Position numbers and translations under genes: made by a program. Positions 22,401 through 62,285 of a DNA stretch of 64,000 bases are shown piece after piece. The notes under the pieces were generated by a model. That model was not told where the DNA came from. It searched no databases and saw only the letters and a program-made list of their open reading frames with translations. Source of the stretch: Caecibacter massiliensis (GTDB lineage Bacteria; Bacillota; Negativicutes; Veillonellales; Megasphaeraceae); contig LT608311.1 of the NCBI GenBank assembly GCA_900095875.1, positions 2,388,774-2,452,773 on the forward strand. The letters run 5' to 3'. Numbering within the stretch: the stretch's first letter is position 1; every line of letters begins with the position of its first letter.

Positions 22401-25400
22401 TGGAACAGCTGAAACCGTATACCAAATCGGACGCATCTAACGTTGGCGCTAATCTGAGGACCTACACCGTCGGCGATGATGGAGAAACCATTACAGAAGA
22501 TGATGCAACAGCAGATCAGAAGAATGCCAATAAAGATGCCTGGGGCAGGGCTCTTGGCGCAGGCACGTTCACTACTGGTACAGATACTACTGCCACAAAT
22601 GCTTCTACTTCGGACAAGCTGGTAACGGGCAAGACGCTGTACGACTATGATAAGCCAACCGGCTCGACGAATTATGTTAAGGTAAACAACACGACTGGCC
22701 AGAACCTGAGTGCTCTTGATGCACAGGTTAAAGCCAATGCTGACACGCTGAATGATAAGACTCATAACATCAAGTACTATTCGGTATCTGATAATGCACC
22801 TACGCTTGGATTTGACAGCTATAGCAATGCAGGTAATGACGGTGCTAAAGGCATGGGCAGCATGGCCGCAGGCTTTGTTACGCATGCAGACGGCATTGCT
22901 TCAACAGTAGCCGGTTCCTACTCCGGTGTCATCAATTCGGGGAATGCACAGGGGCTTGACCTCCGCGGTGCAGCGGCTCTGTCCTATGGTACGTTCAACG
23001 TCAACCAGAATACGGATACCGCGAAAGAACACAGCGGCGTAGCTAACAGCATTGTCGGCCAGGCCAATATGACGACGAACTCTAACGCAGCTATCATCTA
23101 TGGTGCCGGCAATACTGTCACGGATTCCTATCGTCCGATTAATGACAAGAAGGCTGCAGGTATCTTAGGCAGTATTTCGGATCCGACGAAACTCAGTGAG
23201 GCTATGCAGAAGGCTGTCAAGGATAGCGGTGGACAGGTCATGGTCATGGGCGGCGGCAACACGGTTGACAAAGCTTACATGACCCAGGTTTCCGGCGTTG
23301 GCAACACCGTCACGGGCACAAACAGCACCTATGCAGAAGGCACGTCGACGCAGTACAACTTCGTCGATGGATTCCAGAACGAACTGACTAACGGCAAACA
23401 TGACTATATCATCGGTTCGAACAACACGGTCAGCGGAGACAGCATAGACAAGAATCAGTCCAATATCGTCTTCGGCGACAACCACAAACTGACGAATCAG
23501 AAGAACAACGTCATCATCGGTTCGTCCGATACCACCGACGATGAAACGAAAGCCTCCGACGTCGTAGCCATCGGCCACAACGCAAAAGTCAGCGCCGAGG
23601 GCGGCGTAGCCATTGGCAGCGGGTCTGAAGCTACTACTGATAAGTCTACTGCAGGATATGATCCTGCTACTGGTAAGAATTCAAAAAAGACTACTTCTAC
23701 TTGGCAGGCCACCAATGCAGCTGTATCCATCGGTAAAGCAGATGGCACAGTAACCCGCCAGATCAACGGCGTAGCCGCCGGTACAAATGAAACTGACGCA
23801 GTCAACGTGGCTCAGCTGAAATCTTTGCAGTCTGGTCTGACGAAGGATTTGACAGATAAGGGACTGAAATTTGCGGCTAATTCTGGGGCCGAATATACGG
23901 CTAAGCTGGGCAGCACGGTGAAGATTCAGGGCACTGCCAAGAAAGAAAACCATGAATACACGGCTGATAATCTGACTACGGAGATCGATGAAAAAGGCAA
24001 CATCACAATCCTCATGGACAAGGATATGTCCGTGGAAAAACTGGCTGTAAACGGCAAGAATGGCAAAGATAGTGCTCCCGGTACTCCCGGCAGCATCGGC
24101 ATCAGTGGCCAGGACGGCCAGTCCGGTGTTGGTATTGACGGCAAAGACGGTATCTCCATCAAAGGTAAAGATGGTAAGGATGGTGTGACCATGAAAGCTG
24201 TCGATGGCAAGGATGGCACGGAAGGCCATATCGGCCTGACAGGCCCTGCTGGCACCAATGGCATAAAGGGTGCAGATGGACAGCCGGGAACTTCCATCGA
24301 TATCACCGTCAAGAATGGTTATGATGGAACAGATGGTAAGGATGGTGTCAAAGGTGAAAAAGGCGTCGATGGTACAAGCCTGACACGTATCGTCTACAAA
24401 GATGGTGCTGGTGAACATCAGGTAGCTACCATGGAAGACGGCCTGAAATTCAAGGGTGATGATGGAACAGAAATTGCCAAGAAGCTGAACAACACTATGG
24501 AAATTATCGGTGGTGCAGACAGCACGAAACTGACTGACAAGAACATCGGTGTCAATAGTGATGGCGACAAGCTGAAAGTCCAATTGTCTAAGGATTTGAC
24601 AGGAATGAACAGCACCACCTATACAACCACAACTGGCGAAGGAGAATCGGCAACGACTTCTACGACAGTAGTGAATGGTAATGGTCTGACGATTACGGAC
24701 GGCCCAAGTATTACCAACAAAGGCATTGATGGTGGCAACAAAGTCATTACCAAGGTAGGCAGTGGCATTGAAAAAGATGCTACTGGTAACATCACAGAAG
24801 CAAGCAAGACGAATGCTGCCAACATCGGCGATGTCCAGACCATTGCAGAAAGTACCGCTACAAGTTTGACAGGCAAGGGACTGAAATTCGCAGCTAATTC
24901 TGGGGCCGAATATACGGCTAAGCTGGGCAGCACGGTGAAGATTCAGGGCACTGAGAAGAAAGAGGGCCATGAATACACGGCTGATAATCTGACTACGGAG
25001 ATCGATAAAGATGGCAACATCACCATCCTCATGGACAAGGATATGTCCGTGGAAAAACTGGCTGTAAACGGCAAGGATGGCAAAGAAGGTGCTCCCGGTA
25101 CTCCCGGCAGCATCGGCATCAGTGGCCAGGACGGCCAGTCCGGTGTTGGTATTGACGGCAAAGACGGTATCTCCATCAAAGGTAAAGATGGTAAGGATGG
25201 TGTGACCATGAAAGCTGTCGATGGCAAGGATGGCACGGAAGGCCATATCGGCCTGACAGGCCCTGCTGGCACCAATGGCATAAAAGGTGCAGATGGACAG
25301 CCGGGAACTTCCATTGATATCACCGTCAAGAACGGCTATGATGGAACAGAAGGCAAGGATGGTGTCAAAGGTGAAAAAGGTGTCGATGGTACAAGCCTGA

Positions 25401-57127: not shown

Positions 57128-57367
57128 GTTCCACCTCATGAATTCGAATAATCAAAAAATACAGTACATACTATTATACTAAGAAAAGTGATGTTCGTAA
57201 ACAGGGAAAGGAGGAGAAAAGCTGGGAAAAACTCGTTTCTTCTGCGTAACACAAAGTGATTCGCGTTGTGCAGGACAGGGGCGGGCTGTTTTTGGTATAA
57301 TAAAAGTATAGACTTGTTACCCCTGCGATACTGCACGTTTTCCTGCCACTGCCGGAGGTGTATGGCG
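57128..57367 (+). promoter_or_regulatory. Divergent region between prfC and the sigma54 activator
   Basis: 240 bases. For the activator, AGGACA (57272-57277), 18 bases, TATAAT (57296-57301) is a plausible sigma70 promoter. On the minus strand a TATAAT near 57175 may serve prfC. Nothing else was recognised. Confidence 0.55.
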
Positions 57368-59089
57368 ATGAATACGAGACCGTTGGCATTAACCCGTGAA
57401 GATTTTATGGCGATTACCGATGCGGTGTATTGTATTCTCATACTGGTTAATGAAAAGGGGATTCCCGTATATTGGAACAGTGCGGCCTGTGATCTGGAAC
57501 GGAGATTGCCCGGATCGTGCCGGGAAATCATCAAAAGACTGGGAGAAACGGTTGATGCCGTCCACTGTGAAGGCCGCTATGTGGTAACGGCTGCATCGCG
57601 TGATTTCATCTGTCATATCCGTCCATGGCAGACAGGAAAGCGACGTCAGGGAAGTATCTTCATTGTCCATGAATCGTGCGTGTCTTCCTGTGCCGTTCAG
57701 GAACTGAATGTCGTGCGCGATGTCGTAGAGGAAATCGATGCCGTGCTGGAAGCCGGTTCGACGGGACTTTTAGTGCTCGATTCCCGGGGTATGATCAAAC
57801 GGGTCAACCGCCGGTTTGAAGCATTATACGGCCTGAAACGGAAAGCCATATTAGGCAAGTCTATCGAAACAATCAGGGAAGAAACGCAGATACCTCGGGA
57901 ACTGCTGGATAAAGCGCTGCATAAACGGCAGCACGGCGTCTCCCTTGTCGAATATAAGGGGCGCAAGCTCGTCTATACGGCTACTCCCGGACTGGACCGC
58001 AATCATCAGATGCGCTGTATCGTCGTAGATATCCAGGATGTGTCATCATGGAAGATATTGTGGGAAAAATTCAAGGAACAGCGGCAGCATATGAATGAAT
58101 TTATACGCAAAGTCGCCGTTCTGAGCAGTCATTCCCATGATATGGTCATCGGCCGCAGTCAGGCGATGCAGAAGGTCATGCATCTCATCGAGGTCGTTTC
58201 GGATGTCGATTCGACGGTGCTGATTACAGGGGAATCGGGGACGGGCAAAGAAGTCGTCGTCAATGAAATTTATCATCGTAGCCGGCGCCGGGATAAACCG
58301 TTCCTGAAAATTAACTGCGGTGCCATCCCCGATGAGCTTTTTGAATCGGAATTGTTCGGTTATGAAAGCGGTGCCTTTACCGGAGCCAGGCGGCAGGGTA
58401 AGGCCGGCTTTTTTGAACTGGCCGATCAGGGCGTACTCCTGCTCGATGAAATAGGGGAACTGAGTCTGGCAGCTCAGGCCAAATTGTTGCGGGTCATACA
58501 GAATCAGGAAGTACAGCGCATTGGCGCTACCCGGTCTATCCACGTTGATGTCCGTCTTATTGCCGCTACGAACCGGAATTTGTGGGACATGGTGCAGCAG
58601 GGAAGGTTCCGGAGTGATTTGTATTACCGGCTCCACGTCATCCATATCCACATTCCGCCGCTGCGGGAACGGCGGGAGGACGTCATACCGCTGGCAGCGC
58701 AGTTTCTCCATACGTTCAATACAAAATATGAGAAGCATAAAGTACTGACACCGGCACTCTGCCGTCTTCTCATGGTCCAGGACTGGCCCGGCAATATCAG
58801 GGAACTGGAAAATGCCATGGAAACACTGGTCGTACTGACCGAAGGCGATGACCTGCGGCCGGAAGATTTTATCAGTCAGATCCAGATGGAAGAAAGCGAG
58901 GCTATCGTCACTATACGCCGTGTGGCCCCGTGGAACCAGACTATGGCCGAAGTGGAGCGAAAAGTGCTCCAGATGACGGCAGCCCAGTGCCGTTCGACAC
59001 GGGCCATGGCAGATGTACTGCATATTGATCAGTCTACTATATCCCGGAAGATGCAGAAGTACGGTCTGTCCCTGGGAAAGAAGAAATAA
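57368..59089 (+). CDS. PAS-domain sigma54-dependent transcriptional activator
   Basis: 573 residues. Two PAS-like sensor domains (about 10-110 and 125-235, the second with TGLLVLDSRGMIKRVNRRFEALYGL), then an AAA+ domain with Walker A GESGTGKE, the sigma54-contacting GAFTGA near residue 336, Walker B LLLDEIGEL and RLIAATNRN. A C-terminal HTH of the TyrR/Fis type (RSTRAMADVLHIDQSTISRK) closes it. All parts needed to drive sigma54 polymerase are present. The next operon, abfT-abfD, is its likely target, with 4-hydroxybutyrate or its CoA ester a plausible signal. The second ATG is chosen from GGAGG spacing. Confidence 0.92.
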   Translation: MNTRPLALTREDFMAITDAVYCILILVNEKGIPVYWNSAACDLERRLPGSCREIIKRLGETVDAVHCEGRYVVTAASRDFICHIRPWQTGKRRQGSIFIVHESCVSSCAVQELNVVRDVVEEIDAVLEAGSTGLLVLDSRGMIKRVNRRFEALYGLKRKAILGKSIETIREETQIPRELLDKALHKRQHGVSLVEYKGRKLVYTATPGLDRNHQMRCIVVDIQDVSSWKILWEKFKEQRQHMNEFIRKVAVLSSHSHDMVIGRSQAMQKVMHLIEVVSDVDSTVLITGESGTGKEVVVNEIYHRSRRRDKPFLKINCGAIPDELFESELFGYESGAFTGARRQGKAGFFELADQGVLLLDEIGELSLAAQAKLLRVIQNQEVQRIGATRSIHVDVRLIAATNRNLWDMVQQGRFRSDLYYRLHVIHIHIPPLRERREDVIPLAAQFLHTFNTKYEKHKVLTPALCRLLMVQDWPGNIRELENAMETLVVLTEGDDLRPEDFISQIQMEESEAIVTIRRVAPWNQTMAEVERKVLQMTAAQCRSTRAMADVLHIDQSTISRKMQKYGLSLGKKK

Positions 59090-59103
59090 ATATATCCGGC
59101 TGT

Positions 59104-59229
59104 TGATGCAGGACTGCATATTTTCTGATGTAATCCTGCATCAGAAATCGGTCTTTTTATAGGGGATGATCTCACGGTTCAGCCGGCATTTCTGATATAG
59201 CGTTTTTTTGATGATGCAAAATGACATCA
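59104..59229 (+). promoter_or_regulatory. Array of three activator-site candidates
   Basis: TGATG-N8-CATCA occurs at 59126-59143 and at 59212-59229, and a partial third (TGATG-N8-CATAT) at 59104-59121. The first two overlap a 10-base inverted repeat (59104-59144) that could alternatively be the terminator of the activator gene, since a T-rich stretch follows. Confidence 0.6.
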
Positions 59230-59301
59230 CAAAGAAACGCTTCTTTTTTTTCGATGCCTGAATCATGGGCTCCGGCCCCATTCCGTTTGCTCACGAATAA
59301 T

Positions 59302-59317
59302 TGGCGCGATTATTTCA
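59302..59317 (+). promoter_or_regulatory. Possible sigma54 promoter of abfT, degenerate
   Basis: TGGCGC-N5-TTTCA compared with the consensus TGGCAC-N5-TTGCA. The -24 GG is present but the -12 GC is TC, so this is only a candidate. A TATACT at 59320 offers a sigma70 alternative without a good -35. Confidence 0.3.
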
Positions 59318-59402
59318 TATATACTTGTAGAGACGGGAGAAAAGGGGCAAGGAAAAAATATCCCATCCCAAATCATGTGAATGGAGGGAAAAGGAGGCGG
59401 AC

Positions 59403-60707
59403 ATGATGAATCAATGGCAGCGCATGTACGAAGAAAAGAAGATGACGGCTGAATCCCTGGCCAGGCAGTTCAAAAACGGGGATGTCTGTGTCAGCACAGG
59501 GCAGGTGGCGGAACCGACGGGAATTCTGCAGGTACTGGCCTCGTATGCTCCCGAGCTGGACCTGGAACATATCCGCCATTGTGTACTCCTTCCCCTCCGG
59601 CAGCAGGAGTACATGAAAGCCGGTATGGAGAAATATATTTATCACATTTCCCACTTTGTCAGTGCTTATGACAGGAACATGATATGGGAAGGCCGCGGCG
59701 ATTATATGCCGGCCCATTACAGTCAGGTACCACAGGTGTGGACCAGTGTCCTGCCTGAGCCGGATGTGTTTTACGCTGCCGTATCCCCTATGGATGAGCA
59801 CGGGTATTTTAGTTTCGGTACGGCGGCCGATTTGAGTGAAGTCCGTCATCATGCAGAAAAAATACTGGTAGAAGTAAATCCGACTATGCCCCGGTCGTTT
59901 GGTTCCTTTATCCATATTTCAGAAGTAGACGGTATATGGGAAAATGATGCTCCCATTACAGTAGTCGATCCGCCGCCAGTTACCAATACGGACCTTGCCA
60001 TCGGGCAGATGATTGCTGACGAGATACCCAATGGAGCCACGCTGCAGCTGGGAATTGGCGGCATTCCCAATGCGGTGGCACAGAGCCTGCTCGATAAGCG
60101 GAATCTGGGCGTACATAGTGAAATGTTTTGTGACAGCATGGTTGATCTGACACTGGCCGGAGTCATTACTAACGGCTGCAAACGGATTCATCGCGGAACC
60201 TCTGTTGCGACCTTTACCTTTGCTTCCCGCCGGACCTATGATTTTATTGACAATAATCCCGGTGTCGCCTTCCTGCCCGTATCGTATGTCAATGATCCCC
60301 GCGTCATTGCTATGAATGATCAGGTCATTTCCATCAATTCGTGCATCGAAATCGACTTGTTCGGCCAGGTATGCTCGGAAACGATGGGAACAAAGAACTA
60401 TAGCGGTGTAGGCGGGCAGATTGATTTCATCCGTGGGGCCGCTGCTTCCAAAGGAGGAAAATCGTTCCTCGCTTTTACGGCAACGGCAAAAAAAGGGAAA
60501 GTGTCCAAAATTAAACCGGTCCTCACAGAAGGAGCCTGTGTCAGTACGACGAGAAACGATGTCGATTATGTAGTTACTGAGTTCGGAATGGCACGGCTGA
60601 AAGGGCTGACCTGTTCCCAGCGTGCCAAAGCGCTGATTCGCATTGCAGCTCCTGCTTTCCGGGAAGAATTAACGGAGGCAGCCAGAAAGATGCATATTAT
60701 TGTGTGA
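59403..60707 (+). CDS. abfT: 4-hydroxybutyrate CoA-transferase
   Basis: 434 residues of the acetyl-CoA hydrolase/transferase family. NGATLQLGIGGIPNAVAQSLLDKRNLGVHSEMFCDSMVDL holds the CoA-binding and catalytic region, and IDLFGQVCSETMGTKNYSGVGGQIDFIRGA is the late signature. It transfers CoA from acetyl-CoA (or a similar donor) to 4-hydroxybutyrate. The acetate and butyrate transferases of this family are close relatives, but the dehydratase gene 30 bases on fixes the role. AAGGAGG lies 5 bases before the first of two ATGs. Confidence 0.9.
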   Translation: MMNQWQRMYEEKKMTAESLARQFKNGDVCVSTGQVAEPTGILQVLASYAPELDLEHIRHCVLLPLRQQEYMKAGMEKYIYHISHFVSAYDRNMIWEGRGDYMPAHYSQVPQVWTSVLPEPDVFYAAVSPMDEHGYFSFGTAADLSEVRHHAEKILVEVNPTMPRSFGSFIHISEVDGIWENDAPITVVDPPPVTNTDLAIGQMIADEIPNGATLQLGIGGIPNAVAQSLLDKRNLGVHSEMFCDSMVDLTLAGVITNGCKRIHRGTSVATFTFASRRTYDFIDNNPGVAFLPVSYVNDPRVIAMNDQVISINSCIEIDLFGQVCSETMGTKNYSGVGGQIDFIRGAAASKGGKSFLAFTATAKKGKVSKIKPVLTEGACVSTTRNDVDYVVTEFGMARLKGLTCSQRAKALIRIAAPAFREELTEAARKMHIIV

Positions 60708-60737: not shown

Positions 60738-62285
60738 ATGTTGATGACAAAAGAGCAATTTCAAGCCAGTATCCGTGCCCGCAAACCGATGAATGTTTAT
60801 TTTCTGGGCAAAAAAATCGAAGACTTGACGACGTTCCCGCCACTGGCGGCCAGCTTTAATGCCATTTCTACTATTTATGACCTGCAGAGCCGTCCGGAAT
60901 GGAAAGACCTGATTACGGTGCCATCCCATCTCAGCGGACAGCCGGTCAGTATTTACAATGCGCCCCTGCGTTCGGCAGAAGACGCAAACCGCAAGACCCG
61001 GGCTGCCCGTGCTCTTGCGGAAGTCGTCGGCTGTTGTACTCACCGCTGTACCGGTTCAGAAGCCTTTGCCGGTCTGGGCCCGGCCTGCTATGATATGGAT
61101 CAGGATCTGGGAACTCATTACTTCGACCGGTTCATGAAATTCCTCGATTATGTGCAACGCAATGACCTGACCTGTACGGTAACAGTGACGGACGTCAAAG
61201 GCCTGCGCACGCTGGCCCCTCACGAACAGCCTGATCCAGATGCATACGTACACATTAATGAAGTACGCGATGACGGTATCGTCATCAGCGGCTATAAATG
61301 CAACCAGACAGGCATCTTGTTCGCTCACGAAATCGTCATCGTCCCGACGACTAATATGCGTCCTGAAGATAAAGATTTTGCTCTGGCCTGTGCCGTTCCG
61401 GCCGATACGCCGGGCCTGACCTTTGTATTGGGCCGCACGCCCCAGGATAAGCGTTTCTTTGAAGTCGGCGGTGATATCGAAGGAATTGATCTGGGCAAAA
61501 AATATGCCGACCATCAGGCTCTGGTATACTTTGACCATGTATTCGTGCCCAATGACCGGGTCTTCATGTGCGGCGAGACGAAATATGTCGGCCGCCTGTT
61601 GAGTTATTTCACCGCTGTCCATCGCCTGACTGCCGGTGGCTGCAAGGCCGGCGGCTGTTCGGCCCTGTGTGGTGCGGCCAGCCTCATTGCCGATATGATT
61701 GGTGTCCAGAAAGCCGGGCATATCCGCACAAAGCTGACCCAGATGGCCATGACGGCCGAAACGGTGTACGGATTGTCCCTGGCATCGGGCGTCGAAGGAT
61801 TCCAGCACCCCAGCGGATTCTGGATCCCCAATCCGCTTATGTCCCATACCTGTAAGTATACCTGTACCCAGATGCCTTTTGAAGCTGTGCGGCTGGCCCG
61901 GGATATTCTGGCGGGATTTGGAGAAACGGCGCCATCTGAACTGGATATGCGCAGTAAAGAAGTAGGAGAACTCTGTCAGAGAGCGTTTAATCCGGGCAAT
62001 CCGGCCTATACGGCAATGGATCGTCTCCGGGCCGGCCGGTTTATTGAACATATGGCCCGCGGTTCCAACTGGACGGCCATGGCTCTCCACGGCGGAGGAA
62101 ACCAGGAAGCGTCTACCGTCATGGCCCGGTCGTTTACGGATTGGGATTATCTGAAGAATCTCGTCCGGGCGGCAACGGGTATGGAAAAAGACCCGGCCAG
62201 GGTAGACGAAATTATCGCTGCTATCGGTAAAAGGCAGGGCCGCATCTATACCAACCGCGATCTGCCACAGTCGGATAATAAGTAG
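60738..62285 (+). CDS. abfD: 4-hydroxybutyryl-CoA dehydratase / vinylacetyl-CoA isomerase
   Basis: 515 residues. It removes water from 4-hydroxybutyryl-CoA to give crotonyl-CoA by a ketyl-radical mechanism, with FAD and an unusual [4Fe-4S] cluster. The ligands of the Clostridium aminobutyricum enzyme (three Cys and one His) are matched in spacing: Cys100 and Cys104 in GCCTHRC, and His295 and Cys302 in HRLTAGGC. The acyl-CoA dehydrogenase-like fold is otherwise conserved (PVSIYNAPLRSAEDANRKTRA, FDHVFVPNDRVF). The enzyme is oxygen-sensitive, pointing to an anaerobe. GGAGGAGG lies upstream. Confidence 0.95.
   Translation: MLMTKEQFQASIRARKPMNVYFLGKKIEDLTTFPPLAASFNAISTIYDLQSRPEWKDLITVPSHLSGQPVSIYNAPLRSAEDANRKTRAARALAEVVGCCTHRCTGSEAFAGLGPACYDMDQDLGTHYFDRFMKFLDYVQRNDLTCTVTVTDVKGLRTLAPHEQPDPDAYVHINEVRDDGIVISGYKCNQTGILFAHEIVIVPTTNMRPEDKDFALACAVPADTPGLTFVLGRTPQDKRFFEVGGDIEGIDLGKKYADHQALVYFDHVFVPNDRVFMCGETKYVGRLLSYFTAVHRLTAGGCKAGGCSALCGAASLIADMIGVQKAGHIRTKLTQMAMTAETVYGLSLASGVEGFQHPSGFWIPNPLMSHTCKYTCTQMPFEAVRLARDILAGFGETAPSELDMRSKEVGELCQRAFNPGNPAYTAMDRLRAGRFIEHMARGSNWTAMALHGGGNQEASTVMARSFTDWDYLKNLVRAATGMEKDPARVDEIIAAIGKRQGRIYTNRDLPQSDNK

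Follow-up and report, generated by a model that had tools for sequence, protein, structure and literature searches.

The window analyzed here, the whole 64,000-nucleotide stretch of Caecibacter massiliensis contig LT608311.1, carries a gene for a predicted sigma54-dependent activator, followed by an intergenic region with palindromic sites and a candidate promoter, and then by genes for a CoA-transferase and a dehydratase-family protein. The features of this locus are as follows.

57368 to 59089, plus strand: activator (bacterial enhancer-binding protein) of 573 amino acids with PAS, sigma54-AAA+ (GAFTGA) and Fis-type helix-turn-helix (HTH) domains; Pfam PF00158 (E 3e-70), PAS and HTH_50.
59104 to 59121, no strand assigned: predicted enhancer site 1, TGATGCAGGACTGCATAT; 12 of 14 consensus positions; kept in seven relatives.
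59126 to 59143, no strand assigned: predicted enhancer site 2, TGATGTAATCCTGCATCA; 13 of 14 consensus positions; 22 bp from site 1.
59199 to 59251, plus strand: intrinsic-terminator-like hairpin with T-tract, enclosing site 3; stem at 59199-59241; RNA fold -19.6 kcal/mol, z -3.8.
59212 to 59229, no strand assigned: predicted enhancer site 3, TGATGCAAAATGACATCA; 12 of 14 consensus positions; spaced 86 bp from site 2; caps the terminator-like hairpin of the activator gene.
59302 to 59317, plus strand: candidate -24/-12 element, TGGCGCGATTATTTCA, with T at -13; TTTC in 8 of 8 loci; predicted start near 59328.
59403 to 60707, plus strand: CoA-transferase of the 4-hydroxybutyrate/butyryl CoA-transferase group (abfT-like); PF13336/PF02550; best PDB match 3EH7 (named 4-hydroxybutyrate CoA-transferase), 370 bits.
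60738 to 62285, plus strand: 4-hydroxybutyryl-CoA dehydratase-family protein (abfD-like, diverged subfamily); PF11794/PF03241.

The activator, whose start codon was picked by its spacing to GGAGGT at 57354, shows the hallmarks of an enhancer-binding protein, namely, an AAA+ sigma54-interaction domain with GAFTGA in the translation, a C-terminal HTH (PF00158 and HTH_50), and palindromic sites upstream of a promoter, three of them at each of eight loci. These domain matches agree with the preliminary description of the region, which had placed a PAS-sigma54 activator directly upstream of the sites. The sites themselves, two exact and one partial copy of TGATG-N8-CATCA within 126 bases, were located as that description had given them (exact at 59126-59143 and 59212-59229, and with two mismatches at 59104-59121), while TGATGCA-N4-TGCATCA proved to be a better and longer form of the motif. 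Exact TGATG-N8-CATCA occurs just 12 times in the 2.65-Mb genome; of the ten copies outside the array, nine were examined, each of which lies inside a long open frame. The chance for any two of 12 random sites to land within 86 bp is ∼0.4%, and the best three 18-mers of the region scored 37 of 42 against a maximum of 30 over 1,000 dinucleotide shuffles, although the scoring consensus was built partly from the window sites, so that the independent evidence comes from the relatives. A chance origin of the sites was ruled out by these shuffles and spacing odds. Elsewhere in the window, the 18-mer TGGTGCTGGTGAACATCA is repeated at 24403, 25420 and 26419, ∼1 kb apart, suggesting tandem homologous genes or repeats.

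Conservation was assessed in 17 genomes of the same family (Megasphaeraceae), eight of which, C. massiliensis included, carry a close activator homologue; among 250 genomes of the class (the 17 included), no additional homologue was found at E 1e-130. The activators of the seven other loci are 44-53% identical to that of the window, and at all eight loci three sites lie directly behind, or overlap, the end of the activator gene, whose TGA stop codon is often inside site 1 in the relatives. Sites 1 and 2 are 20-21 bp apart in the relatives (22 bp in the window, hence 20-22 bp over the eight loci), sites 2 and 3 are 66-80 bp apart (86 bp in the window, 66-86 bp overall), and the center of site 3 is ∼72-96 bp from the GG of the -24 motif. 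The array scored above all 1,000 shuffles at seven loci, and its score was reached by 2 of 1,000 at the eighth, that of genome G013, a weaker locus with CGATG-type site variants. Behind the promoter lies, depending on the locus, a CoA-transferase gene, the dehydratase gene directly, or an unrelated gene (G010). Thus, with the same array, a -24/-12 element and a downstream gene in seven relatives, sigma54 enhancer control is well supported, and the activator from the neighboring gene very probably docks at these three conserved sites. The sites had been expected to persist wherever the activator-abfT pair does, and they were kept at every locus where a close activator relative was found. In genome G000 (C2:902580-904258, locus L050), an activator homologue seems to be split over two adjacent frames, with no -24/-12 element found nearby, and is possibly decayed.

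The candidate element reads TGGCGCG-N4-TTTCA. Its -24 motif is TGGC at seven of the eight orthologous loci and CGGC in G012; the C at -12 and its spacing to -24 are as expected, and the G of the usual GC at -13/-12 is replaced by T, here and family-wide, which makes this a variant sigma54-type promoter and not a consensus one. TTTCA had previously been called a degenerate -12 element and the weak point of the case; the sequence was read correctly, but T at -13 is the usual spelling in this family. In an intergenic scan of the activator loci of the C. massiliensis genome with any base allowed at -13, T was found in seven clear elements (that of the window included), C in one and G in none. Searching 200 genomes of the class with the pattern TGGCAY-N5-TTKCATAT, with matches counted by hand, gave 111 TTGC and 12 TTTC outside the family (n = 123) and 5 TTGC and 16 TTTC inside it (n = 21), a split with a Fisher p of 6e-10 when related genomes are treated as independent. 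A reversed control pattern gave ∼19 matches outside the family over both bases, so the 12 TTTC matches there are near chance. From these counts, T at -13 is apparently the normal form of the promoter in this family. A limited literature search returned no report of T at -13 as the normal form of a lineage, and nothing relevant on sigma54 or rpoN in Megasphaera.

The presence of rpoN, which the preliminary description had proposed to check, was confirmed by one single-copy gene (PF04552, E 1.5e-37), and the conserved array, the eight TTTC promoters and this gene together support the sigma54 enhancer layout that had been suggested for the sites and promoter. The encoded sigma54 is 41-67% identical to its counterparts within the family versus 23-28% to those of other families; no sigma54 match was found in the four tested genomes from other families of the order (G063, G068, G088 and G176). 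Alignment to Escherichia coli sigma54 revealed that, in the helix recognizing the -12 element, S-T-A replaces H377-E378-S379: the C. massiliensis sequence is LSTATVSR, its clade has LSTATVSR or LSAATVSR, and all 14 sigma54s outside the family have HESTVSR. E378 has been implicated in recognition of the -12 GC (PMC4496707) and crosslinks to promoter DNA (PMC5505868). Just upstream of the C. massiliensis rpoN (L054, position 1429, with rpoN at 1468), TGGTATAATAATTTCATAC looks like an extended -10 promoter and also like a -24/-12 element, possibly reflecting sigma54 autoregulation.

A single-residue rule, by which E378 or S379 alone would decide between T and G at -13, was considered but failed on several exceptions: G014 keeps E378 (LSEATICR) with a promoter that is still TTTC; G015 and G016 keep S379 (LSTSTVSR), with TTTC beside activators (5 of 5 such promoters found in G015) and TTGC elsewhere; and G004 combines LSASTVSR with TTGC. 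In the sigma54 tree, the clade of C. massiliensis (15 rows) stands apart from a second type, sigma54-B (eight genomes of the family), and from a third group (G015 and G016), with long branches meeting there. Second sigma54s in several relatives complicate the matching of factor to promoter, G015 itself carrying two. Given the divergence of the whole protein, other parts of sigma54 may matter too, and the two changes, in the helix and at -13, may be no more than markers of one clade.

A counterpart from outside the class, the Eubacterium MAG locus L179 (Clostridia), encodes an activator 40% identical to that of the window, alongside a CoA-transferase and a dehydratase from the subfamily of the window protein. 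Two of the sites are present there, the first containing the stop codon and the second lying within a terminator-like hairpin (-22.8 kcal/mol). Its sigma54 helix is VHESTVSR and the homologous promoter is TGGCATAAAACTTGCTTT, that is, TTGCTT, so that L179, as a single locus, provides a natural control in which the ordinary helix goes with the ordinary base. A contig scan with the generic peptide GESGTGKE yielded no homologue with the array beyond L179 among the best seven matches listed.

The strongest rival accepts sigma54 and enhancer control as real and takes T at -13 as neutral drift, a tolerated weak base with specificity unchanged. Single-base variation at -11 and -12 is known between sigma54 promoters (PMC3162934), and the exceptions in G014, G015/G016 and G004 weaken the residue-level correlation. 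Under drift, however, a mixture of bases would be expected, whereas T is fixed at all eight orthologous promoters and dominates at the other sigma54 promoters of the genome, and G occupies this position in the homologous L179 operon, whose host has HESTVSR. Drift is therefore a rather improbable account.

At each of the eight loci, site 3 sits at the tip of a terminator-like hairpin, with folding energies of -20 to -46 kcal/mol and z of -3.8 to -11. The window hairpin also appears in the fold of the whole region, and its T-tract lies at 59241-59251, with weaker T-tracts in some relatives. When the hairpins of the eight loci were aligned, 81% of cells paired versus 41-51% for slid versions, and both sides had changed in 13 of 19 pairs; inside site 3, GATG...CAT is invariant, while the outer stem is variable. 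Such a pattern would be expected if DNA binding conserves the core and RNA pairing the stem. The covarying hairpin, together with a terminator-like match at window site 2, could instead mean that the palindromes are mainly RNA structures of terminators and not enhancer sites, which is very improbable, since a terminator alone would not keep GATG...CAT invariant while its stem varies freely outside the site; the same sequence is also found at sites 1 and 2, 20-22 bp apart, beside a conserved -24/-12 promoter. A look for terminator-nested enhancers at ten other activator loci showed long palindromes at some (L155, L161 and L171) and no clear general rule. At L155 and L171 (G015 and G016), a perfect inverted repeat with 20-bp arms lies between the activator gene and a TTTC promoter, perhaps another terminator-nested enhancer. 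A limited literature search on enhancers overlapping terminators returned nothing relevant.

Transcription of the operon from a sigma70-type promoter, with a coincidental -24/-12 match, is the least credible alternative of all. TATATACT just downstream of the -12 element might suggest it, but a consensus scan of 59060-59420 gave no sigma70-type match and the -24/-12 spacing and GGC are kept across relatives with activators just 44-53% identical.

The intergenic region is best read as a sigma54 control region with three sites, a -24/-12 promoter and the hairpin at site 3, served by the activator and by a sigma54 with an altered helix, a reading to which we assign a probability of roughly 0.8 from comparative sequence data. 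The activator made from the upstream gene would bind the three TGATGCA-N4-TGCATCA palindromes, and DNA looping and ATP hydrolysis by its GAFTGA-bearing AAA+ domain would open RNA polymerase-sigma54 at 59302-59317, from which the CoA-transferase/dehydratase operon would be transcribed; the PAS domain presumably senses a fermentation metabolite or redox state. TTTCA in place of TTGCA would follow from the changed -12 helix (S-T-A for H377-E378-S379) of the main sigma54 of the family. Site 3 would double as the apex of the terminator hairpin of the activator gene, keeping read-through out of the operon.

What the operon does is less certain. The window dehydratase scored 349 bits to AbfD (1U8V) versus 782 bits for the closer AbfD of the relative G006, and on the HpaB_N domain it is outscored by three further genes of this kind from the C. 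massiliensis genome. C99, C103, H292 and C299, which we take to be the Fe-S ligands of AbfD, are all identical in the aligned protein, while Y296 is replaced by A. The putative "abfD" of the window is best classified as a diverged AbfD-family paralogue. Because of this divergence, and because G010 has another gene downstream, assignment to 4-hydroxybutyrate is uncertain, and "4-hydroxybutyrate fermentation" is plausible but unproven as a label for the operon. Thus, of the earlier proposal that this fermentation is under sigma54 control, the control part is supported by the conserved array and promoter, and the pathway part is left in doubt.

Knowledge of -12 GC reading by sigma54 has so far rested on genetics and crosslinking. 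Merrick and Chambers reportedly connected the HTH of canonical sigma54 with the -13 base in 1992; here, natural change in a family of bacteria has affected both that helix and that promoter position. With TTTC as its normal spelling and an altered sigma54 helix, this family offers a natural test of promoter reading by sigma54, and, with L179 as the ordinary pair, the two form matched natural pairs for testing the contact directly, which could also guide the design of orthogonal sigma54 promoters. Moreover, promoter searches based on TTGC will miss sigma54 regulons of this family, fermentation operons included. RpoN1 and RpoN2 of Rhodobacter sphaeroides and the RpoN paralogues of Bradyrhizobium are likewise sigma54 variants with promoters that differ at a single base within the -12 element; their shifts are at -11 and -12 (PMC3162934), whereas the shift here is at -13 and accompanies a changed recognition helix. 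In the work of Nie et al. (2019, PMC6615313), Clostridiales sigma54 regulons are predicted with the consensus TTGGCATN5TTGCT, and sigma54 control of abfD-type genes is already predicted in Clostridium (abfD under XanR). The two systems share a PAS-type one-component enhancer-binding protein beside its target operon, fermentation genes including abfD, and multiple upstream activating sequences (UAS), there mostly 100-250 bp upstream of the sigma54 promoter; unlike the promoters here, theirs, from a Clostridiales-only set, have G at -13; the comparison covers layout, genes and promoter consensus.

In several genomes of the family, a sigma54-B gene with its own activator lies near a closer abfD homologue. 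Clusters of a second rpoN and an activator were seen at L164-L169 and L172 (G001, G011, G013, G002, G006, G014 and G016), six of the seven being divergent from the closer abfD homologue. The abfD-facing promoters have TTGCT at all seven such loci read (G001, G011, G013, G002, G006, G014 and G005). The sigma54-B genes and these promoters make two sigma54s with different promoter classes per cell a live hypothesis and not a result. In a tentative extension, to which we give slightly less than even odds, the sigma54s would have been re-specified, with sigma54-A (altered -12 helix) reading TTTCATATA and sigma54-B reading TTGCT; the cell would then hold two partly orthogonal systems, and in the operon shared with Clostridia, the promoter base would fit whichever sigma54 the host carries. 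On the side of the sigma54-B clusters opposite abfD, the promoters have TTGCTTA, TTTCATA or TTACATA.
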